A DNA stretch of 64,000 nucleotides. Origin: Winogradskyella psychrotolerans (GTDB lineage Bacteria; Bacteroidota; Bacteroidia; Flavobacteriales; Flavobacteriaceae). The position numbers were made by a program, and so were the translations under genes. The notes beneath the pieces were generated by a model. That model ran no database searches and had not been told where the DNA came from. It saw only the letters and a program-made list of their open reading frames with translations. Positions 27,580 to 57,065 of the stretch are shown here, in pieces. Every line of letters starts with the position of its first letter. The first letter of the stretch is position 1. Location of the stretch: positions 62,001 to 126,000 of the forward strand of contig NZ_JAHKPS010000018.1 of the NCBI RefSeq assembly GCF_018860565.1. The letters are read 5' to 3'.

Positions 27580-29367
27580 TTGATTAACCAAAAATCTATA
27601 GCTGTATTACCCTTTGTCAATATGAGTAATAATATTGACAACGATTATTTCTGTGATGGAATTACAGAAGAAATCATTAACGCACTAACTAAAGTAAAAG
27701 GTCTTAAAGTTATAGCAAGAACGTCTTCATTTTCGTTTAAGAATAATAATGTCGATGTACGCCATATAGGCAATCAATTAGGTGTGTCCACAATTTTGGA
27801 AGGGAGTATTAGAATATTTAAAGATAGGATTCGAATTAATATTCAATTAATCAGAACAAATGATGGCTTTCAGGTATGGTCTCAAAATTTTAATCGCAAA
27901 TTGGACGATATTTTTGAGCTTCAAGATGAGATAAGTTTAATAATTGCAGAACAGATAAGAGAAAATTTCGGTCACTTTGATATTTCTAATAACATTTCTA
28001 TCATTGGAACCAAAAATATTAATGCCTACAAGCTCTATTTAAAAGGGAGAGCATATCAACTTAACTGGGTTTTAGAAGATTACATTGAAGCCATCAATTA
28101 CTACAAACAAAGTATCGCCATAGATAAAGATTTTTATGATGCCTATTTTGCCTTATCTAGGTCTTACAGTATTTTATCGGGTTGGGGATGTATTGAAAGA
28201 AAGACCGGAGAGTATCATACGAGACAGTTTTTAAATCAAGGTTTAAAGATTAACTCTAAATCTTATTTGAGTTATTTTTCTCAATCATCACTAAGTTTTT
28301 GGCTGAATTGGAATTATACAAAAGGGATAGAATTTTTAAAAAAAACACTTTTAATAAATCCAAGTTACGCTATTGCTTATGAAGGAATAGCAGAAGTTTA
28401 CATGGCTACAAATCAATTAGATAAAGCATTGCTAAATATTAATAAAGCCATAGAAATAAGCCCTTTATCACCTAATCATCTTTTTACCAAAGGCAATATT
28501 TACTTTTTAGATAAGGCGTATAATAAAGCCATAACGTATTTAGAGGAATGTTTAAGAATTGATCCTAATTTCACCTTAGCAATCGAGACAAAGTTAGCTT
28601 GTTATATGCTTCTAAATGACTCCTATAATTTTAGAGATTACATTGCTAAAATGCCTCAACTTATTGCCCCTGAGGTGTGTGAAATACTATTCTGTCTTAT
28701 TAATAAAAAACCATTATCTAATCCGATTGAATCCATCACAATTAATATTGAAGAAAGTTTTAAAAGTATTTATCCTTGGCATTTCTATTTCCTTATACAT
28801 ATTGGAAAAACAGACCAGGCCTTACAACTATTTGAAGACAAAATAAATTTAAAAATAGGACAATTAGTTAATTTCCAATTAGATCCTTTTTTAAATCCAT
28901 TACGAGAGTATAAACATTTTCAGCTAATTGAACAACAAGTTATATCGTCTGGCTTAGTAACTGTAAACAAAGGCACTGCTTATAATATACCCAAGGAAAA
29001 TTCAAAACCTCTAAATACAGCCGAAATAGCTAAATATAAGTTAATTTTAGAAAATTTCATAAATAGCAGTGAACCTTATTTAAATCCAAACCTTTCTTTA
29101 AAAGATCTCGCCAAAAACATTGCTTTGCATTCTAATAAATTGTCTTGGTTATTAAATGCTGAATTCAATAAGAACTTTAACGATTATATAAATCAATTTA
29201 GATTAAACCATTTTAAAACCATCGCATTAAACCCAGATTTTAAACACATTACCATTTTAGGATTGGCTTACGATAGCGGTTTTAATTCCAAAAGTGTCTT
29301 TAATACCTACTTCAAAAAAACAGAAGGTATAACTCCTAGCCAATGGGTAAAACAAAACAGCAACTAA
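27580..29367 (+). CDS. Regulator A: TolB-like domain, TPR repeats, AraC-type HTH
   Basis: 595 residues, no signal peptide, so cytoplasmic. Order: FlgO/TolB-like domain about 1-130 (SIAVLPFVNMSN, YFCDGITEEIINAL, LGVSTILEGSI, FQVWSQNF), TPR repeats about 145-360, and a variable acidic linker to about 490. A C-terminal AraC-type HTH lies at about 500-590 (…LGLAYDSGFNSKSVF, KKTEGITPSQW). The start is TTG: three codons separate it from an upstream stop, and the next Met (codon 11) would cut the first TolB strand. The paralogue at 49744 uses the same TTG, and their HTH residues 556-587 / 552-583 are identical. Predicted target is the gene at 29607, whose promoter carries the shared operator. Ligand unknown. 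Confidence 0.85.
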   Translation: MINQKSIAVLPFVNMSNNIDNDYFCDGITEEIINALTKVKGLKVIARTSSFSFKNNNVDVRHIGNQLGVSTILEGSIRIFKDRIRINIQLIRTNDGFQVWSQNFNRKLDDIFELQDEISLIIAEQIRENFGHFDISNNISIIGTKNINAYKLYLKGRAYQLNWVLEDYIEAINYYKQSIAIDKDFYDAYFALSRSYSILSGWGCIERKTGEYHTRQFLNQGLKINSKSYLSYFSQSSLSFWLNWNYTKGIEFLKKTLLINPSYAIAYEGIAEVYMATNQLDKALLNINKAIEISPLSPNHLFTKGNIYFLDKAYNKAITYLEECLRIDPNFTLAIETKLACYMLLNDSYNFRDYIAKMPQLIAPEVCEILFCLINKKPLSNPIESITINIEESFKSIYPWHFYFLIHIGKTDQALQLFEDKINLKIGQLVNFQLDPFLNPLREYKHFQLIEQQVISSGLVTVNKGTAYNIPKENSKPLNTAEIAKYKLILENFINSSEPYLNPNLSLKDLAKNIALHSNKLSWLLNAEFNKNFNDYINQFRLNHFKTIALNPDFKHITILGLAYDSGFNSKSVFNTYFKKTEGITPSQWVKQNSN

Positions 29368-29508
29368 CTGTTTTATAGCTCATTTTTTCTTTTACAATAA
29401 ATAACACTTTATAGACTGCTATTCCTACCTAGCAGAACATAGCGTATCTTAAATTCAGAGGAAAGCACTAATCAATAAGAGCTTAAAAAAAACTTCAAAA
29501 CCGTAATT

Positions 29509-29568
29509 CCGAACGTCCTAATTTATAATCTCGGACGATTGAAATCCTTTTATACAGGAACTTTGCAC
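29509..29568 (+). promoter_or_regulatory. Shared promoter-operator of the serine-hydrolase gene
   Basis: CCGAACGTCC…TCGGACG (inverted CGTCC/GGACG) at 29509-29537, then after exactly 24 bases TTTGCAC (29562-29568). From 29523 to the gene's leader it aligns without gaps to 51694 onward, about 50 of 65 bases being identical. Confidence 0.7.
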
Positions 29569-29606
29569 TATCCAATAATTATATATCAATCAAAAAATAA
29601 ACAGTC

Positions 29607-30734
29607 ATGAATACTTTTCATCCCACATCCAAAAAAGACAACTCTAGTAAACTCAAAACTATCGGTAACGGTGTTGTATTTATCTTTTTTCTAGGTATCA
29701 CCACCTTAATATCCTCCTGTTCTAGTGACGATGATACTAATGCACCAAGCACTAACTATACAACTGCTGAACAACTATTAACCGATATCGACTTTCAAGG
29801 GTATGCTATTATCACTGAAAACGGAAATGATCTCGTGCGTCAGGGCTTCGGATTAGCTAATGAAAGTACAACATTGGCTCAAGATGATAATTTAGCCTAC
29901 AGAATAGGATCTGTAACCAAAACCTTAACGGCAGCTGCAATTGTACAGTTAAAACGCGATGGATTAATTACAAGCTTTAATCAAACCTTAAGTGAGTTTG
30001 ATGATACATTTCCTAATGGAGATCTAATTACAATTAAGCAATTATTGTCGCATCAATCTGGTATTCCTGATTATCAATTTGTAGTTGAAGATGCTTACGA
30101 ACAAGGAGAAACTCTAGATGAAGCAGATATCTATGAGGTAATTATGGAAATAATTTCAGAAAACGGCCTCAATTTTACACCCGGTTCTAGTAAACAATAT
30201 AGCAATTCCAACTTTCTTATCGCAGCATTATTGATTGAAGAATTAGCTCAGGTGTCTTACCACGATTATATACAACAACACATTTTAACGCCTTTAAACA
30301 TGACAAACACGTACAAAGGCACCAATGTTATCGATACCAATATACATGCCGAAGGCTATAACAATGGTAGCAGTAATAGTACCTATCCTATGACTATTGC
30401 ATTTGGAGTGGGTGATTTTAGTAGCACACCTAACGATATGGAAATTTGGACAAAGGCTGTTAAAAATAATTGGTTTACTGCGTCTGAAAAAGCTGAAATA
30501 TTTGCCGAAGACGTCCCAAGCGGCTACGTTGATTTTGGTCTCGGTTGGTTTACCACACAAGAAGGAAACACCACAATGTATTGGCATGGAGGCGACATAA
30601 ACGGCTATTGGAGCATGATTGGGTTTATACCAGAATACAATGCTACAATCGTACTATTAAGTAACCAGCAAGACGATAGTGGTGCACAACGTAGTACCAT
30701 TATTCAACAATTATTAACCAATGAATTCAATTAA
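29607..30734 (+). CDS. Serine hydrolase lipoprotein (class C beta-lactamase / DD-peptidase fold)
   Basis: 375 residues. Lipobox SSC at Cys38. Active-site motifs: SVTK (Ser102, Lys105), YSN (Tyr198-Asn200) and HGG near 327-329, corresponding to the KTG position. Natural substrate unknown; D-Ala-D-Ala peptides, esters or beta-lactams are alternatives. First gene of the predicted regulator-A target unit; overlaps the next frame by 14 bases if that starts at 30721, but the following gene probably starts at 30766. Confidence 0.88.
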   Translation: MNTFHPTSKKDNSSKLKTIGNGVVFIFFLGITTLISSCSSDDDTNAPSTNYTTAEQLLTDIDFQGYAIITENGNDLVRQGFGLANESTTLAQDDNLAYRIGSVTKTLTAAAIVQLKRDGLITSFNQTLSEFDDTFPNGDLITIKQLLSHQSGIPDYQFVVEDAYEQGETLDEADIYEVIMEIISENGLNFTPGSSKQYSNSNFLIAALLIEELAQVSYHDYIQQHILTPLNMTNTYKGTNVIDTNIHAEGYNNGSSNSTYPMTIAFGVGDFSSTPNDMEIWTKAVKNNWFTASEKAEIFAEDVPSGYVDFGLGWFTTQEGNTTMYWHGGDINGYWSMIGFIPEYNATIVLLSNQQDDSGAQRSTIIQQLLTNEFN

Positions 30735-30765
30735 ACATATAAACCAAACATTAAAACTTGTACAC

Positions 30766-31416
30766 ATGAAACAGTTATCAACTATACTCATTCTATTCTC
30801 ACTATTAACAAATGCTGTGTTTGCACAAAGTCAGCAAGAACATCTCAAAGATCAAACACCAAATCACAAATACAGAGTTAGTTTTCCTGCTATAATTCTA
30901 GGTAATATTGGTGATGGTGGCAAAAGAACAAATACTAAACACATCGAATTGCATGTGAAGCGCGAATTAGACGCTAAAAATATTATAGGTATAAAATTTG
31001 CCACCTGGCGATTATTTCAACCTATGGGCATTCAGTGGTGGGACGGACTTTTAGACAAAATAGATTCTGAAAGTGAGTTCTATCCTGGCTACCTAAAGGA
31101 AACCGGAATAGGGGTGTCCTATCAGCGTATGTTATGGAAAGGGCTATTTGCGTCTGTAGAAGTGTTGCCACAATATAAAACCTATGTAGATCTTGATAAT
31201 AAAGAAATAGCCAATGGCTTTAAATTATATACCTCTTACCATGTGGGCTATCATTTCGCTTTTGGAAAAAAGAAACAATTCTTTATAGAACCCCAATTTC
31301 ATTGTCAAAATTGGATGATTGATACCAATACTCCTGATGAATTTAAACAACTAGACAATAAATGGAAATCTCATTTTCTATTTGAACCCAACCTTTATAT
31401 TGGTATTAAGTTTTAA
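30766..31416 (+). CDS. Predicted outer-membrane or periplasmic barrel protein
   Basis: About 216 residues from ATG 30766 (MKQLSTILILFSLLTNAVFAQ), a clear signal peptide; the frame's first ATG at 30721 would add 15 residues without a role. Strand-like segments and aromatic residues (GIKFATWRLFQPMGIQWW, YHVGYHFAFGKKKQFFIEPQFHCQNW) and the C-terminal …NLYIGIKF suggest a barrel with terminal Phe. No family recognised. 32 bases after the serine hydrolase and 35 before the next. Confidence 0.7.
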   Translation: MKQLSTILILFSLLTNAVFAQSQQEHLKDQTPNHKYRVSFPAIILGNIGDGGKRTNTKHIELHVKRELDAKNIIGIKFATWRLFQPMGIQWWDGLLDKIDSESEFYPGYLKETGIGVSYQRMLWKGLFASVEVLPQYKTYVDLDNKEIANGFKLYTSYHVGYHFAFGKKKQFFIEPQFHCQNWMIDTNTPDEFKQLDNKWKSHFLFEPNLYIGIKF

Positions 31417-41294: not shown

Positions 41295-41888
41295 ATGAAA
41301 AAAGTACTGATACTTTTTGCACATCCAAAGTTTGAAAAATCGAGAGTTAATGCAACACTTATAAAGCGTTTAACAAGTAAAAATCACGTGACCTTTCATG
41401 ATTTATATGAAGAATATCCCAACTTTCATATAAACGTGCAGCGCGAACAAGAATTATTACTTCAGCATGATATTGTAATTTGGCACCACCCAATGTATTG
41501 GTATAGCTGTCCTGCAATTTTAAAACAGTGGAAAGATTTGGTGTTAGAATTTAATTGGGCCTATGGTCCAAACGGAAAAGTACTTCGAAACAAAACCATT
41601 TTTAACGTAATAACCACAGGTGGTTCACGTGAAGTGTATTGTAGCGAAGGTTATAACACCTACACAATTAATGAGTTTTTAAGACCATTTGAACAAACAG
41701 CGAATTTATGCGGTATGAATTATTTACCGCCATTTGCCGTCATGGGAACCCATAGTTTATCTAACGACGATTTACTAAATTACGCCAACCAATACGAACA
41801 ATTAATTGATTTACTTCAAGGCAATTTTAAAGCTACGCAGTTATCCAATTGCTTTTTTCTTAACGATTTAGAAATTTTAACCGCTTAA
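41295..41888 (+). CDS. KefF/KefG-like flavodoxin-fold quinone oxidoreductase
   Basis: 197 residues; NQO-type FMN fold: LILFAHPKFEKSRVN, DIVIWHHPMYWYSCPAILKQWKDLVLEFNWAYG, VITTGGS. In enterobacteria such proteins are cytosolic subunits that activate Kef K+/H+ antiporters. Here the stop is 2 bases from the antiporter start, strongly supporting that pairing. Confidence 0.88.
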   Translation: MKKVLILFAHPKFEKSRVNATLIKRLTSKNHVTFHDLYEEYPNFHINVQREQELLLQHDIVIWHHPMYWYSCPAILKQWKDLVLEFNWAYGPNGKVLRNKTIFNVITTGGSREVYCSEGYNTYTINEFLRPFEQTANLCGMNYLPPFAVMGTHSLSNDDLLNYANQYEQLIDLLQGNFKATQLSNCFFLNDLEILTA

Positions 41889-41890
41889 TT

Positions 41891-43783
41891 ATGTCTGGAA
41901 GTTTATTATTCGATGCGATTGTTTTTCTTGCTGGTGCCATTATTTGTGTATCAATAGCAAAACGACTAGGATTAAGTTCGGTGATTGGTTATTTATTAGC
42001 TGGTGTACTAATTGGTCCTTATGTTTTAGGATTTATTGGAGAAGAAGGTGAGGACATTCTGCATTTTGCAGAGTTTGGTGTTGTAGTGATGTTATTTTTA
42101 ATCGGATTAGAAATCGAGCCCAAAAACTTCTGGAACATGCGAAAATCTATCCTGGGTATGGGAGGCATTCAAGTCGCATTAACTGTTGGTTTCACCTATG
42201 TGTTATTCGCATTTTTAGGATACGAATGGTATGTAGCATTAGCGATAGGTATGGCTGTATCGCTATCATCTACGGCTATTGCGTTGCAAACCATTAAAGA
42301 AAAAGGTTTGATGAACACCACCTTTGGTTCAAGTGCTTTTTCAATCTTATTGTTTCAGGATATTATTGTGATATTTATGATTGGTGCATTGCCACTTTTA
42401 AGTAATTCCGAAGAACAAGTAAGTAGTACAGAGTTAGAGGCCTCGGCAACTTTAATTGAAACTTTGCCCATAGGCTTACAAACCTTAGCAATTATATTGT
42501 CGGTAGTTTTAATTATTGTAACAGGTAGATTTGTGGTGATACCAATGCTTCGAAAAGTGGCTAAAACAGGCGTTAGAGAATTATTAATTGCAGCAGCGTT
42601 TTTAATCGTTTTCGGAATTTCATACCTCATGGAATTTGTTGGTTTAAGTCCTGCATTAGGCGCTTTTTTAGGCGGAGTAGTATTATCAACGAGTGAGTTT
42701 AAACACGAACTAGAAAGCACTTTAGAACCCTTTAAAAACTTATTATTAGGGCTCTTTTTTATGGCCGTTGGTGCATCTATTAATTTTGTGGTGATTGCGA
42801 ATAATCCGTTAACTATTGGCGGTATTTTACTCGCCATTATTATCATAAAAGCCTTGGTGTTGTTCATTACCGGTCGCATATTCAAATTGAAATTAGACCA
42901 AAATGTATTGCTAACCTTCAGTTTAGCCCAGGTTGGAGAATTTGCTTTTGTATTGCTGTCGTTCGCATTTCAGCTTAATATTTTAGAACAAGAACAAATG
43001 GATATGATGCTGGTAGTTACCGCTGTTTCCATGTCCTTAACACCAATTTTGGCTTTGGTAAATGAGCGCTTAATTCTTCCTAGTATTGGCACTAAAGAAT
43101 CTATTAAACGACCGATGGATCATATTGCGAAATCGCAAAAAGTAATTTTGGTTGGTTTTGGTCATTTTGGTAGTACAGTAGGCCGATTTTTACGTTCTCA
43201 TGGTGTTGAAGCTACGATTTTGGATTTCGATTCTAACCGTGTAGATTTTCTTCGTAAAATGGGATTTGAAGTGTATTATGGTGATGCCACGCGTGAAGAT
43301 TTACTAGAATCTGCGGGTATTGCCGAAGCTAAATTATTGATTTGTGCTACCAATAAAGTATCGGTTGCCAAAGCCATTAGTAAAATTGTTAAAGAAAAAC
43401 ACCCACATGTTGAGCTTTTGGTACGTACCAAAAACAGATATGATGCCTATGAATTGTTAAACCTTAATGTAACTCATATTTATCGTGAAACATTAGATAC
43501 TTCGTTGGCCTTAGCAAGCGATGCCTTACATAAATTAGGCTTTAGAAAATACACACTAAATCGTCAGGTTCAGAATTTTATTAAGTATGATGAGGCAAGT
43601 TTAAAACGATTGGCTGCAGAGCCAAAACGAGACGAAGACTATGTATTTATAGCTAGAAAAGAAATAGAACAACAAGAAAAATTACTCGAAAATGATTTTA
43701 AACGCGGCATTGTAACTTACGACAATCATTGGGATAGTGAGCATATTAGAAAAGTATTGAAAAATTCTAATACAAAGATGTAA
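41891..43783 (+). CDS. CPA2-family cation:proton antiporter with RCK/TrkA-N domain (KefB/KefC-like)
   Basis: 630 residues. About 12 transmembrane segments (1-395), with VVMLFLIGLEIEPKNFW and GLSPALGAFLGGVVLS; then a cytosolic Rossmann RCK domain (VILVGFGHFGSTVGRFL, YGDATREDLLESAGI, LVRTKNRYDAYELLNLNVTHIY). Expected K+ efflux for proton entry, acidifying the cell to protect from electrophiles. It is translationally coupled to the KefG-like gene. Confidence 0.9.
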   Translation: MSGSLLFDAIVFLAGAIICVSIAKRLGLSSVIGYLLAGVLIGPYVLGFIGEEGEDILHFAEFGVVVMLFLIGLEIEPKNFWNMRKSILGMGGIQVALTVGFTYVLFAFLGYEWYVALAIGMAVSLSSTAIALQTIKEKGLMNTTFGSSAFSILLFQDIIVIFMIGALPLLSNSEEQVSSTELEASATLIETLPIGLQTLAIILSVVLIIVTGRFVVIPMLRKVAKTGVRELLIAAAFLIVFGISYLMEFVGLSPALGAFLGGVVLSTSEFKHELESTLEPFKNLLLGLFFMAVGASINFVVIANNPLTIGGILLAIIIIKALVLFITGRIFKLKLDQNVLLTFSLAQVGEFAFVLLSFAFQLNILEQEQMDMMLVVTAVSMSLTPILALVNERLILPSIGTKESIKRPMDHIAKSQKVILVGFGHFGSTVGRFLRSHGVEATILDFDSNRVDFLRKMGFEVYYGDATREDLLESAGIAEAKLLICATNKVSVAKAISKIVKEKHPHVELLVRTKNRYDAYELLNLNVTHIYRETLDTSLALASDALHKLGFRKYTLNRQVQNFIKYDEASLKRLAAEPKRDEDYVFIARKEIEQQEKLLENDFKRGIVTYDNHWDSEHIRKVLKNSNTKM

Positions 43784-49743: not shown

Positions 49744-51519
49744 TTGATTAACGAGAAATCTATTGCTGTCCTACCTTTTGTCAATATGAGTAATGATATT
49801 GATAACGAATCTTTCTGTGATGGTATTACTGAAGAAATAATTAATGCCTTATCAAAAATAAAAGGCTTAAAGGTTATTGCAAGACGGTCTTCGTTTGCGT
49901 TTAAAAATAAAAATATTGATGTTCGACATATAGGCAATCAATTAGGTGTGGCTACTGTTTTAGAAGGAAGCGTTAGAAAATCAAACAATAGCATTCGCAT
50001 AACAGGCCAATTGATAGATACAAAATACGGTACACAATATTGGTATAAAAAATTCGATAGAGAATTAATAGATATCTTCGAATTGGAAGATGTAGTGAGT
50101 CTTGCCATAGCAGATGAAGTCCGAAACAATTTTGGGCATTTTGAAGTGCAGGACCATTTAATTAAGCAACCAACAAATAATGTCGAGGCTTATCAATTAT
50201 TTTTAAAAGGGCGTTCATTGCAATTAAAATGGACACCTGAAAGTCTAAATCAAGCAATATCATACTATAATCAAGCTATTAACTTAGATAAAAATTACGC
50301 TAAAGCTTATTATGCCAATTTACAATGCTATGGGTTATTGGCCATTTGGGGTTATATGCCTTACCAAGAAGCTATGGATTTAGCTGTTGGCAATCTGTTA
50401 ATAGCCAAAGAAATAGAAACAGCACTACCCGAATATCCGTTATCTTTTGTAGGGAAGTTTCTTTGGGGTGAATGGGATTTTAAAAATGCATATATACATA
50501 TAGAAAAAGCTTTAGATATTAATCCTAATTATATTGATGGATTAGAAGCTATGACAGAGCTTTCTATAGCGCTTGGCTTTTTTGATAAGGCTTTAACGTA
50601 TGCAAACAAATTATTAGAAGTAGATCCGCTATCCGCAAATAATCATTACACATTAGCTAGCATTTACTACTACCAACGTAAGTTTAAAAAAGCATTAGAA
50701 AATGTAAACTACGCTCTAACACTTAATACTGATTTAGCATTAGCGCATCATTTGAAATGTTTCTGTTTAATATGGCTAAACAGAAGTCAACAGTTTCAAT
50801 ATTGTATTCAGGATACTACCTTAAAAGAGGAGAAAAATTTATTATTTCAACTTATCAACAATAAGGATGTTGAAGTTCCGGAACAAATGATGACAAAATG
50901 GTCACAATTTCAAAACGAAAAAACGATGCCAGTACCCTATGATGTGTTTATTTTAAGCAATTCAAGTTATATAGACCAAGGGTTTACACGTTTAAAAGAA
51001 ATGATTGAGCAAAGACGTGGGCAAGTGATAAACTATAGGCAAGAACCTTTTTTACAACCCTTACATAATACCAAAGCATTTTCAGAGCTACACAAGTCCA
51101 ATTTGTCCATTGAAGACGTTAATTACCATCAAATAGACGAAGAAAAACCATCGTCAATCATTTTAGATGCTCAACAAATAGAAACGCTTAAAGAGGAATT
51201 GTGTTCTTATTTTGAAGAGGACGAACCTTTCTTAAATCCGCAATTGAGTTTAAAATTCGTGGCTGATGTGTTTGAATTAAATACCAATAAAATGTCCTAC
51301 GCAATTAATAAAGCTTTTCATCTTAATTTTAATGACTTTGTGAATTCGTATCGCTTAAATTATTTTAAATCATTAGCCATAGACCCAAAAAATTCGCATA
51401 TAACTATTCTTGGCTTAGCTTATGACAGTGGTTTTAATTCTAAAAGTGTATTTAACACCTACTTCAAAAAAACAGAGGGCATTACACCTAGTAAATGGGT
51501 GAAATCTAATACTAAATAA
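49744..51519 (+). CDS. Regulator B: TolB-like domain, TPR repeats, AraC-type HTH
   Basis: 591 residues, paralogue of 27580. Domain order is the same: TolB-like about 1-130 (SIAVLPFVNMSN, FCDGITEEIINALSK, LGVATVLEGSVRKS), TPR about 145-350 (NLDKNYAKAYYANLQCYG, INPNYIDGLEAM), HTH about 500-585 with residues 552-583 identical to regulator A. The TPR and linker regions differ, so the signal should differ. TTG start with the same upstream stop, spacing and -7 box as the paralogue. Its likely target is the barrel gene at 51766. Confidence 0.85.
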   Translation: MINEKSIAVLPFVNMSNDIDNESFCDGITEEIINALSKIKGLKVIARRSSFAFKNKNIDVRHIGNQLGVATVLEGSVRKSNNSIRITGQLIDTKYGTQYWYKKFDRELIDIFELEDVVSLAIADEVRNNFGHFEVQDHLIKQPTNNVEAYQLFLKGRSLQLKWTPESLNQAISYYNQAINLDKNYAKAYYANLQCYGLLAIWGYMPYQEAMDLAVGNLLIAKEIETALPEYPLSFVGKFLWGEWDFKNAYIHIEKALDINPNYIDGLEAMTELSIALGFFDKALTYANKLLEVDPLSANNHYTLASIYYYQRKFKKALENVNYALTLNTDLALAHHLKCFCLIWLNRSQQFQYCIQDTTLKEEKNLLFQLINNKDVEVPEQMMTKWSQFQNEKTMPVPYDVFILSNSSYIDQGFTRLKEMIEQRRGQVINYRQEPFLQPLHNTKAFSELHKSNLSIEDVNYHQIDEEKPSSIILDAQQIETLKEELCSYFEEDEPFLNPQLSLKFVADVFELNTNKMSYAINKAFHLNFNDFVNSYRLNYFKSLAIDPKNSHITILGLAYDSGFNSKSVFNTYFKKTEGITPSKWVKSNTK

Positions 51520-51686
51520 AGAAAAGTCATAGGTCTTTTATCTCAGTAAAACTCGCTAAATTAATTTTTAGACGCTTTCCCCTTTCTTAATATTTAGATT
51601 TAAAAATTATTTTATTCCTATACGCTACTAGAGTTAGCCTAACAAATTGAAAATTCAAAAAGTTTTCATTTTAATACTTGAATTGG

Positions 51687-51739
51687 TTCGAGATTATAAT
51701 TTCGGACGTTTACAGTCTTCTTATACCTCAAATTTGCAC
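51687..51739 (+). promoter_or_regulatory. Shared promoter-operator of barrel gene A
   Basis: TTCGAGATTATAATTTCGGACG (partial palindrome CGAGATTATAATTTCGG), then 24 bases, then TTTGCAC (51733-51739). Aligns without gaps to 29523 onward. Confidence 0.7.
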
Positions 51740-51765: not shown

Positions 51766-52368
51766 ATGAAAACAATCAAAAAACAAATTTTATCAATACT
51801 GGCTTGTGTAGCCTTTGCATTAGTATCTGGTATGGCATACGCACAAAATACAAATTCAGAAACCACAACCCAAAGAAAAGGATTCATATTTGAATTTGTA
51901 GTTGGAGGAGGCATTATCAGTATAGAAGATAGTGCTGGTATTCAAACCTTTGACAAATCTCAGGGAACCTTTGTTTTTCCAGATCTAAAGTTTGGCTATA
52001 TGTTAAACGAAAGACTTGCTATTACTGCCTCTTTGCCAGGAAATATCTACGAATTTCAGGATAATGACAGAAATTTTGGAGCGTTTATTCCGTCTTTACA
52101 ATATTGGGTAAAAGACCGTTGGTGGATTCATGGCGGAATTGGTTTAGCCATAGATTCGCCTGCACTATATGATATTAAAGACGATGTCAATGACGATTGG
52201 AACTTTGGTTGTGCTGTTATGGCAAGTACAGGTTACGAGATTTATAAAAAGAAAAATTTCGCACTTAATGTTCAGTCTAAGTTAGTTTTGGGTCGTACGT
52301 CTTTAGATGGAGATGCCCATAGAGATGCAGTAATTTTTAATGTAGGGTTAGGATTTAGCTGGTTATAA
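51766..52368 (+). CDS. Outer-membrane beta-barrel protein A (copy 1)
   Basis: 200 residues. Signal peptide (ILACVAFALVSGMAYAQ). Mature part FIFEFVVGGGIISIEDSAG, FGYMLNERLAITAS, WWIHGGIGLAID, NVGLGFSWL: small barrel with a terminal aromatic-Leu. Near-identical to the gene at 53130. Preceded by the shared operator, so probably the target of regulator B. Function unknown. Confidence 0.82.
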   Translation: MKTIKKQILSILACVAFALVSGMAYAQNTNSETTTQRKGFIFEFVVGGGIISIEDSAGIQTFDKSQGTFVFPDLKFGYMLNERLAITASLPGNIYEFQDNDRNFGAFIPSLQYWVKDRWWIHGGIGLAIDSPALYDIKDDVNDDWNFGCAVMASTGYEIYKKKNFALNVQSKLVLGRTSLDGDAHRDAVIFNVGLGFSWL

Positions 52369-52408: not shown

Positions 52409-52632
52409 ATGAAAAAAACTTTAATAACCTTGTTTTTTTTGTGGACTAACATTAATCGCGAAATGTCAAAATACAAGTGTAGAAAAATCAATATTCGGAT
52501 TACAAACTGGAGTTTTAGGAATCTGGGCATATAATGAAGCAAAACTATCAAATACCATAGCACTGAGAACAGAACATGGTTTTTAATTTTGGTATTTGGG
52601 AATCTACTTTTTATGATGATTATGATTCACCA
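52409..52632 (+). pseudogene. Decayed copy of barrel gene B
   Basis: The ATG and following about 220 bases closely match the intact gene at 56499, including ACAAGTGTAGAAAAATCAAT and a stretch around GATTATGATTC. Two single-base insertions break the frame (in the T run after codon 7 and near 52578), and homology stops at 52632. So this is a remnant of a gene B partner of copy 1. No supported gene occupies the rest of 52369-53129; its AT-rich remainder shows nothing else recognisable. Confidence 0.85.
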
Positions 52633-53129
52633 AAATGCTAAGTCAAAAAGCAGAATACCAATGTAAACTTGTTAAACCCTGCAATAAATAGGTGATCTGT
52701 CTTTTATATTAATTACAAAACATTAAACGGTATAAATTTGTCTATTAATATAAAAATGAATCATCATGAACTAGTTATGCCCAAGATTTTACACGACAGA
52801 CTGATAGTTTAAAAAATAAAAGATGCTGATGCCTGCATTATAAAAATATTATGCAGCCTTATCACAAAAACCCTCAAAAGATACGTCCTATGAGATATTG
52901 ATTCAAGTTACGCTCTTTTATGAACTGCTCAAGCTCGGGACTCTGCATTTGTTCATTTAGTAATTGCGCTCAAAAAATAATACTACCTTAAAAGCTCTCT
53001 CTATGACTCAAAATTTTTAAGTAAATGTGTAATATTTCTAATATTATGACACTATCCATTAAAAACAGAAAGAGCTAAAGTCTAATTTAGAAATAGTAAC
53101 ATCAATTAAAACAATCAAAAAGAACACTC

Positions 53130-53744
53130 ATGAAATCAATTAAAATGAAAAAAATCAAACAAACTTTAATAAAAATGGCTTGTGTAGCCTTTGCATTAGT
53201 GTCTGGTATAGCATACGCACAAAACACAAATTCAGAAACCACAACCCAAAGAAAAGGATTCATATTTGAATTTGTAGTTGGAGGAGGCATTATCAGTATA
53301 GAAGATAGTGCTGGTATTCAAACCTTTGACAAATCTCAGGGAACCTTTGTTTTTCCAGATCTAAAGTTTGGCTATATGTTAAACGAAAGACTCGCTATTA
53401 CTGCCTCTTTGCCAGGAAACATTTATGAATTTCAGGATAATGACAGACATTTCGGAGGTTTTATTCCATCGTTACAATATTGGGTAAAAGACCGTTGGTG
53501 GATTCATGGCGGAATTGGTTTAGCCATAGATTCGCCTGCACTATATGATATTAAAGACGATGTCAATGACGATTGGAACTTTGGTTGCGCTGTTATGGCA
53601 AGTACAGGTTACGAGATTTATAAAAAGAAAAATTTCGCACTTAATGTTCAGTCTAAATTAGTTTTAGGTCGTACGTCTTTAGATGGAGATGCCCATAGAG
53701 ATGCAGTAATTTTTAATGTAGGGTTAGGGCTTAGCTGGTTATAA
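53130..53744 (+). CDS. Outer-membrane beta-barrel protein A (copy 2)
   Basis: 204 residues; differs from copy 1 mainly in the first 17 residues (MKSIKMKKIKQTLIKMAC…), with about five other substitutions (for example RH for RN, GF for AF, LSWL for FSWL). The DNA match is well above 95 percent, so the copies are recent or under gene conversion. The upstream match to copy 1 is limited to the bases around the start, so the operator is missing. Confidence 0.82.
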   Translation: MKSIKMKKIKQTLIKMACVAFALVSGIAYAQNTNSETTTQRKGFIFEFVVGGGIISIEDSAGIQTFDKSQGTFVFPDLKFGYMLNERLAITASLPGNIYEFQDNDRHFGGFIPSLQYWVKDRWWIHGGIGLAIDSPALYDIKDDVNDDWNFGCAVMASTGYEIYKKKNFALNVQSKLVLGRTSLDGDAHRDAVIFNVGLGLSWL

Positions 53745-54161: not shown

Positions 54162-54235
54162 AAATTGTGTCCGCTTATAAAACACAAACCTTTATTAATT
54201 TAATTAAAATCAACTTTGCTAAAAATACAATAATT

Positions 54236-56498: not shown

Positions 56499-57065
56499 AT
56501 GAAAAAAACTTTAATTACTATGACTTTGTGCGGACTAACATTAATCGCCAAAGCTCAAAACACAAGTGTAGAAAAATCAATATTCGGATTACAAACTGGA
56601 GTTCTAGGAGTCTGGGCATATAATGAAACAAAACTATCAAATTCTATAGCATTAAGAACAGAAATTGGTTTTGATTTTGGTATTTGGGAATCTACGTTTT
56701 ATGATGATTATGATTCTCCATTTCTACTCACACCTGTAATAGTTGTGGAGCCAAGATTCTATTACAACCTTAAAAAACGGTCAGAGAACTCAAAACCAAT
56801 TGATGGAAATAGTGGCAATTTTATTGCTTTAAAGATGGGTTATCATCCAGAATTGGCACTGTTCAATACTGACGATGCGCCTGTAGTAAGTGACTTTTCC
56901 ATTATACCCACTTGGGGAATTAGGCGACATTTAGGGAAGCACTTTAATTTTGAAGCAGGTCTTGGCGCAGGATATAGTTACACATTTGCTAAACGTGCTG
57001 GTTATTTAAAGAATAAAAGTGAACTGGAATTAAATATGCACTTACGAATAGGGTATAGACTTTAA
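56499..57065 (+). CDS. Outer-membrane beta-barrel protein B
   Basis: 188 residues, signal peptide MKKTLITMTLCGLTLIAKAQ. Strand segments LSNSIALRTEIGFDFGIWES, FEAGLGAGYSY and …MHLRIGYRL end suggest a barrel. Intact partner of the decayed copy at 52409. It sits close to an alpha/beta hydrolase (44 bases). Function unknown. Confidence 0.8.
   Translation: MKKTLITMTLCGLTLIAKAQNTSVEKSIFGLQTGVLGVWAYNETKLSNSIALRTEIGFDFGIWESTFYDDYDSPFLLTPVIVVEPRFYYNLKKRSENSKPIDGNSGNFIALKMGYHPELALFNTDDAPVVSDFSIIPTWGIRRHLGKHFNFEAGLGAGYSYTFAKRAGYLKNKSELELNMHLRIGYRL

Follow-up and report, generated by a model that had tools for sequence, protein, structure and literature searches.

A putative operator at fixed distance from the promoter accompanies CadC-like, AraC-type regulators of Bacteroidota and precedes many different genes

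The window considered here, a stretch of 64,000 nt from Winogradskyella psychrotolerans, contains two related regulator genes, each of which is followed on the same strand by a promoter region and by a gene encoding a protein with a signal-like N-terminus (Table 1). Both promoters lie 148-167 nt 3' of the regulator genes. A serine hydrolase gene stands behind regulator A, and its end is overlapped by 14 nt by the next gene, whereas the gene behind regulator B is small and, judged from its sequence, encodes a probable outer-membrane barrel.

Table 1. Features of the two regulator loci, in window coordinates
Feature	Position	Strand	Description
Regulator A	27580..29367	+	595 aa if read from TTG (start codon uncertain); Pfam TPR and HTH_18
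Extra half-site, TTCCGAAC	29507..29514	+	immediately 5' of dyad A; repeats the dyad's right half in direct orientation, at 22 nt
Operator dyad A (putative), GTCCTAATTTATAATCTCGGAC	29515..29536	+	
-7 box, promoter A	29559..29566	+	A at 29559, TTTGC at 29562-29566; TTTG 25 nt past the dyad
Target A	29607..30734	+	serine hydrolase, beta-lactamase/PBP-like, signal-like N-terminus; PF00144, E 4e-47; cluster 0
Next gene	30721..31416	+	cluster 3; no Pfam match; barrel-like by sequence reading
Regulator B	49744..51519	+	same architecture as A (Pfam); 591 aa from TTG
Operator dyad B (putative), GTTCGAGATTATAATTTCGGAC	51686..51707	+	
-7 box, promoter B	51730..51737	+	A at 51730, TTTGC at 51733-51737; TTTG 25 nt past the dyad
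Target B	51766..52368	+	small, signal-like N-terminus; cluster 2 (9 of 105); no Pfam match
Second copy of target B	53130..53744	+	93.6% identical to target B

The two upstream regions had been described in an earlier note as a gap-free match in front of unrelated genes, and this description is borne out. Anchored on TTTGCAC (29562 and 51733), 54 of 70 bases are identical from 29520 and 51691, and nowhere else in the window does a 70-mer, in either orientation, share more than 37 bases with site A. CGGACG stands 24 nt ahead of TTTGCAC at both sites, as claimed, and the downstream genes are indeed unrelated, one belonging to the Pfam family Beta-lactamase and the other to no Pfam family. Absent from that note were two features: the genes immediately preceding the promoters are paralogous to one another, and the shared element is an inverted repeat. 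CGGACG-N18..30-TTTGCA has three matches in the whole genome (33 contigs, 3.9 Mb), namely the two sites and one on contig C32 with a gap of 26 nt, against two in the reversed control. Nor is the match scattered over many random sites: the dyad pattern with at most two mismatches is found in this genome at these two places alone, and a third mismatch adds six further rows, whereas the reversed control gives as many as 12.

Both regulators begin with a CadC/TolB-like part, continue with TPR repeats and end in an AraC-type helix-turn-helix (HTH), the HTH_18 matches of the two having E values of 1.6e-12 and 6.9e-12 (47.9 and 45.9 bits, cut-off 33.6). A structure model of regulator B (mean pLDDT 87, 46 sequences) has as its best Foldseek match in the PDB the periplasmic domain of CadC (E 2e-6; modest TM-scores of 0.34 by query and 0.55 by target), with TolB (E 6e-4) and many TPR proteins further down; the fits to CadC and to TolB are both partial. 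In NCBIfam the HilA/EilA model covers residues 5-319 of regulator B (E 1.4e-11), with a score of 43.5 bits that is far below the cut-off of 589. On the strength of these structural, NCBIfam and Pfam matches, the sensor part is regarded as CadC-like and the output part as AraC-like. The Pfam scan of the two regulators showed no OmpR-type winged helix at the N-terminus, the frame beginning at the TolB-like part, and no kinase or receiver domain; hydropathy indicated no transmembrane segment, the highest 19-residue value being 1.31 in A and 1.16 in B. Lacking the N-terminal winged helix, the regulators are not filed as members of the CadC/HilA group. Among 136 related regulators, ten have frames longer than 700 aa (L100, L113, L191, L092, L096, L102, L110, L177, L194 and L200), and in all three of these that were scanned (L100, L113 and L191) the Pfam domain Guanylate_cyc lies ahead of the TolB-like part, giving a fusion of cyclase, sensor and AraC output.

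Regulators A and B are 44% identical, and their similarity is unevenly distributed over the HTH region. At its end (residues 564-593 of regulator A), 28 of 30 residues are identical, and in its first half two 30-residue blocks reach 43% and 60%. Third codon positions agree in 15 of the 28 identical residues, which, together with the overall divergence of the proteins, points to old paralogs under protein constraint; gene conversion between the two regulators finds no support in this comparison. A recent copy of the promoter, by duplication or gene conversion and devoid of regulatory meaning, might be thought of since the regulators are paralogs, and is a most improbable origin of the match given the age of the copy and the conservation of the site in other genera and families, including the held-out set described below.

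What the two promoters have in common is an inverted repeat of 22 bp resembling GTTCnGAATTATAATTCnGAAC, and exactly 25 nt separate its end from the TTTG of the -7 box. It was followed through two collections of relatives, dyads being chosen without reference to TTTG and the spacing rule being framed after part of the first set had been read. In the first set, 82 loci were tried and 78 counted, after the removal of L030, L077 and L119, in which the regulator was unread by motif, and of L065, a duplicate protein. Of these 78 distinct regulators, drawn from relatives and the family, 67 are followed by a dyad, close to ATTATAAT, whose arms read GTnC and GnAC on either side of an A+T core. In 57 of the 67 the distance to TTTG is exactly 25 nt, and any other single offset occurs at most twice. 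The second collection, which served as the held-out set, comprised 80 loci, of which 7 were unread and 73 read, and 58 remained when 15 near-duplicates had been removed (at least 95% identity to the first set over the last 300 residues, the remaining loci still being related to it). Here 44 of 58 have the dyad and 33 of these 44 have TTTG at 25 nt, with no other offset occurring more than three times. Held-out loci that obey the rule include those of Draconibacterium, Carboxylicivirga, Roseivirga, Cyclobacterium and Saprospiraceae, whereas in two metagenome-assembled genomes labelled Calditrichia and Melioribacteraceae the dyad is present but TTGC or TTTA (behind a third half-site) stands in place of TTTG. 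The pooled sets amount to 136 regulators with 111 dyads, 90 of them with TTTG at 25 nt, and 25 regulators have no dyad by the site test. Two further cases are outside the 136: L119, read later, obeys the rule, and the site of G161, the genome of L077, is among the genome-wide pattern sites considered below.

Some of the 111 dyads may be chance matches, as the loose site test is also passed by 193 of 1160 first-order shuffles (17%) and by 5 of 20 HTH-less TolB/TPR sensor paralogs taken as control genes. TTTG at 25 nt was seen in 1 of the 193 passing shuffles and in none of the 20 control genes. The symmetry of the dyad is clear but partly a product of selection, as the finder itself favours it; covariation between the arms that goes beyond conservation stands out at 3 of 11 pairs, in a count that does not control for relatedness.

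Placing the -7 box at -12 to -5, where the consensus TAnnTTTG sits in Flavobacterium psychrophilum (PMC9723704), puts the dyad at about -55 to -34. Compared with the Bacteroidota sigma-A promoter as given there, AnnTTTG is found at the expected place, with A as the third base before TTTG in 88 of 88 distinct promoters that had been chosen for TTTG and nothing else, whereas the first T, at -12, is present in only 25 of the 90 rule-obeying sites. Neither promoter of the window has this T.

A group of eight sites departs from the simple rule in an orderly way. Here a third GAAC follows the dyad at 16-17 nt, and the exact distance of 25 nt separates the -7 position from this GAAC, with TTTG in six of the eight and TTTA and TTAG in the other two. 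The rule is therefore better put as a half-site followed after 25 nt by TTTG. The partner of that half-site stands 14 nt ahead in inverted orientation (GTTC), and a further one may be present as a direct repeat at 20-22 nt; in 14 of 111 sites, site A of the window among them, the dyad is directly adjoined by GAAC, GGAC or GTAC. Even when third half-sites are counted, 15 of the 111 sites remain off-rule.

The distribution of the element over genomes bears directly on its specificity. A dyad-only pattern that makes no demand on TTTG (at most two mismatches, 100 genomes) returned 13 distinct dyads, 12 of which have TTTG at 25 nt. The pattern of dyad plus -7 box (at most two mismatches, 397 genomes of the family) was found at 38 places in 29 genomes, rows with three mismatches being weak, as the reversed control gives dozens of them. 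Thirty-three of the 38 sites lie within 6 kb of one of 58 full-length regulators (49 genomes of the same draw), neighbourhoods that make up about 0.03% of the sequence if 3.5 Mb per genome is assumed; three candidate regulators were scored per genome, and further regulators may be missed by this listing. The site is directly 3' of the regulator and on the same strand in 24 cases, and in nine more it is on the regulator's contig within 6 kb, one of these being a reverse reading of the adjacent dyad and one divergent. Five sites have no such regulator. Two of them, in G099, are at a contig end, ahead of a serine hydrolase and a barrel-like gene, two are unexplained (G356 and G131), and one, in G130, lies 2.3 kb behind a protein with an AraC-type HTH and a membrane-looking N-terminal part. 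In that protein (L263:698-1858; G130:C1:3451697-3452857) an HTH of the same kind is joined to a hydrophobic N-terminal part, and the output domain may thus be common to regulators with other sensors. By this distribution the site goes with the regulator and hardly occurs elsewhere, as a regulator-specific operator would. The strict rule is obeyed 3' of the regulator in 64 of 136 cases and 5' of it in 1 of 116, where the site faces a divergent gene, and autoregulation was accordingly discarded as a candidate.

Within the genome of W. psychrotolerans itself, a regulon extending beyond the two sites is supported neither by the dyad search nor by a half-site search. GNAC-N25-TTTGC gave 75 matches against 104 in the reversed control, and the best-looking half-site (contig C28, 166831) is without a dyad, lies beside a cobalamin riboswitch and was dropped. 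That riboswitch (L207:1058-1296 in G000, contig C28; Rfam RF00174) stands ahead of a receptor-like gene.

A readable gene stands behind 105 of the 111 sites, and these genes fall into 26 clusters: serine hydrolases (38), zinc-type dehydrogenases or quinone oxidoreductases (15), two barrel-like clusters (9 and 7), sigma-factor-like proteins (6), NmrA-like proteins (4) and others. The target was taken as the longest frame starting at most 420 nt past the site, clusters are single-linkage BLAST groups in which single assignments may be wrong, and their names come from the sequence and the Pfam matches of window members, barrel-like and sigma-like being by sequence reading alone. On a FastTree phylogeny of the 105 regulators at least 42 target changes are needed, where 25 would be enough if each cluster had arisen once; although this tree contains long branches and leaves 29 forks open, the sisters L067 and L132, which have unlike targets, are well supported. 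Some relatives have two operators in one regulator locus, the one preceding a serine hydrolase from the family of target A and the other a small barrel-like protein. Thus, in G143 and G109, the first operator precedes a serine hydrolase and the second, 2.8 and 3.7 kb further on, precedes a cluster-3 barrel-like gene. In 19 of 22 loci chosen for extra sites, the gene behind the extra site belongs to one of these clusters, with 11 cluster-3 barrel-like genes, one of cluster 2 (the family of target B), two serine hydrolases, three dehydrogenases, one amidohydrolase-like and one alpha/beta hydrolase-like gene.

Several of these clusters are also represented downstream of the window operators, by the genes at 30721 (cluster 3), 32735 (NmrA), 34784 (S41 peptidase), 53130, 54068, 56499 and 57109. 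The product of the gene that overlaps target A is 80.6% identical to that of the gene behind the second operator of L123, and target B's second copy has no rule-obeying site ahead of it. The interval that separates the two barrel genes contains, at 52409-52640, a decayed and frameshifted copy of the gene at 56499-57065, read by eye, which suggests that the barrel and its neighbour were probably duplicated together and that one part was then lost. A possible remnant operator with TTTGC in register lies at 54168-54219, ahead of a zinc-type dehydrogenase; it agrees with a relative's site at 32 of 52 positions, the background reaching 30, and is not claimed as a third operator. Pfam matches among the window neighbours further include a nitroreductase, DJ-1 and, at 41295-43783, a flavodoxin-like reductase adjoining a Na/H-exchanger with a TrkA_N domain, a pair that resembles a Kef-type potassium efflux pair. 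These neighbours and the recurrent targets allow the guess that the signal is envelope or electrophile stress.

Taken together, each of the matching promoters is probably an operator site located just behind the gene of its own regulator. In the genomes compared, as far as can be read from their sequences, regulator and site are linked, their spacing to the promoter is fixed, the pairing is specific and the downstream gene is exchanged. From this we infer binding, activation and a signal, and consider it likely that a one-component regulator binds the adjacent dyad and activates the promoter, the cassette persisting while the gene behind it is exchanged. The CadC/TolB-like and TPR part would sense a signal, and the AraC-type HTH would bind at about -55 to -34, to the 22-bp inverted repeat of GAAC half-sites, which are sometimes joined by a third. 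From there the bound regulator would activate RNA polymerase carrying sigma-A at a weak promoter, with exactly 25 nt between the operator and the TTTG of the -7 box. The cassette would then consist of regulator, operator and core promoter, with a changing gene behind it, and the window would contain two of them. An activator fits here because the -7 box is weak and the dyad abuts the -33 region. Proteins of the AraC family often use direct repeats, and the dimer may therefore sit on the dyad in a geometry other than that of an inverted repeat.

The term promoter-operator, used in the earlier note, is supported by the 25-nt spacing to the -7 box in most of the 111 sites, the held-out set included. 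Its proposal that shared control is the simplest reading fared less well. Such a regulon, in which one or both regulators act on both promoters and coordinate the serine hydrolase with outer-membrane barrels, is plausible and falls a little short of an even chance. The HTH ends are nearly identical, the operators are alike, the two-operator loci of G143 and G109 have a serine hydrolase and a cluster-3 barrel-like gene, each behind an operator, in one regulator locus, and the window's own cluster-3 gene overlaps the end of its serine hydrolase gene. Set against this, each operator is adjoined by its own regulator, and the first halves of the HTH regions are clearly unlike. As each operator directly follows its own regulator gene, two paralogous local circuits with a nearly identical recognition sequence are the simplest reading, and cross-talk would follow if the two HTHs, identical in all but two of 30 residues near their end, bind alike.

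With the same operator, the regulator could instead silence its target until a signal comes, and the place of the dyad next to the -33 region would suit a repressor too; the AraC family habitually activates and the -7 box is weak, for which reasons repression appears unlikely. Two readings that assign no regulator site to the dyad have very little to recommend them. A terminator or RNA element of the regulator gene is suggested by the position just past the stop codon, the dyad even starting on the last base of the regulator's TAG stop in one clade (L028, L095, L096, L098-L106, L108, L110, L114 and L121), yet the dyad is continuous and A+T-rich with neither loop nor T-run, keeps a fixed distance to the -7 box, and occurs also in divergent position (G155) and 1-6 kb away, ahead of other genes. 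An extended -33 element of an alternative sigma factor would account for a dyad abutting the -33 region at fixed spacing and is similarly far-fetched, for the -7 box has the sigma-A form except for its first T and the sites co-occur with the regulator, the form with TTTG at 25 nt being absent behind the HTH-less sensor paralogs.

From sequence alone, a family of regulators in marine Bacteroidota emerges that joins a CadC-type sensor to an AraC-type output, together with the site it probably uses and a spacing rule that is exact. The regulator keeps its promoter while the gene behind it changes, and the same site at the same distance from the promoter recurs behind relatives in several groups of Bacteroidota, ahead of many different genes. 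Since the spacing rule held in the held-out set, targets should be readable off genomes. We give an even chance to the wider proposition that the CadC-like sensor, in some cases with a nucleotidyl cyclase, and the AraC output form a plug-in switch behind which the gene has repeatedly been replaced, that the spacing rule alone predicts the target of a regulator not yet characterised, and that the targets make up a single envelope or electrophile response. If this is true, the recurrent members of that response include the serine hydrolase, small barrels, a quinone-type oxidoreductase, an NmrA-like reductase and sigma-factor-like proteins.

A search of the open-access literature by title and start of abstract found no description of this regulator-operator pair, and its parts can be compared with several known systems. 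It resembles the one-component regulators of the AraC/XylS type, such as RhaR/RhaS and AraC, in the C-terminal HTH_18, in the adjoining targets and in an activator-like site that abuts the -33/-35 region, and differs from them in that the main site is a 22-bp inverted repeat with short half-sites and a fixed 25 nt to TTTG, and in that the N-terminal part is without an AraC-type ligand-binding domain. The direct repeats of 20-22 nt at some sites are close to the 21-nt direct repeats predicted for RhaR of Bacteroides, whereas RhaR of E. coli uses 17-bp half-sites with a 17-bp spacer (PMC3870299). With CadC and HilA, which are ToxR-like, the regulators share the sensor part, as seen from the Foldseek matches to CadC and TolB and the HilA/EilA match below cut-off; here, a C-terminal AraC HTH takes the place of the N-terminal winged helix, and no membrane segment is seen. 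In Bacteroides, SusR and the hybrid two-component regulators adjoin their targets, and the hybrid systems carry an AraC HTH; the present regulators likewise stand beside their presumed targets in Bacteroidota, without a kinase or receiver domain. Another known kind combines a class III nucleotidyl cyclase with TolB-like and TPR parts. The scanned long-frame relatives, all three carrying Guanylate_cyc, share this feature, whereas the regulators of the window lack that domain.
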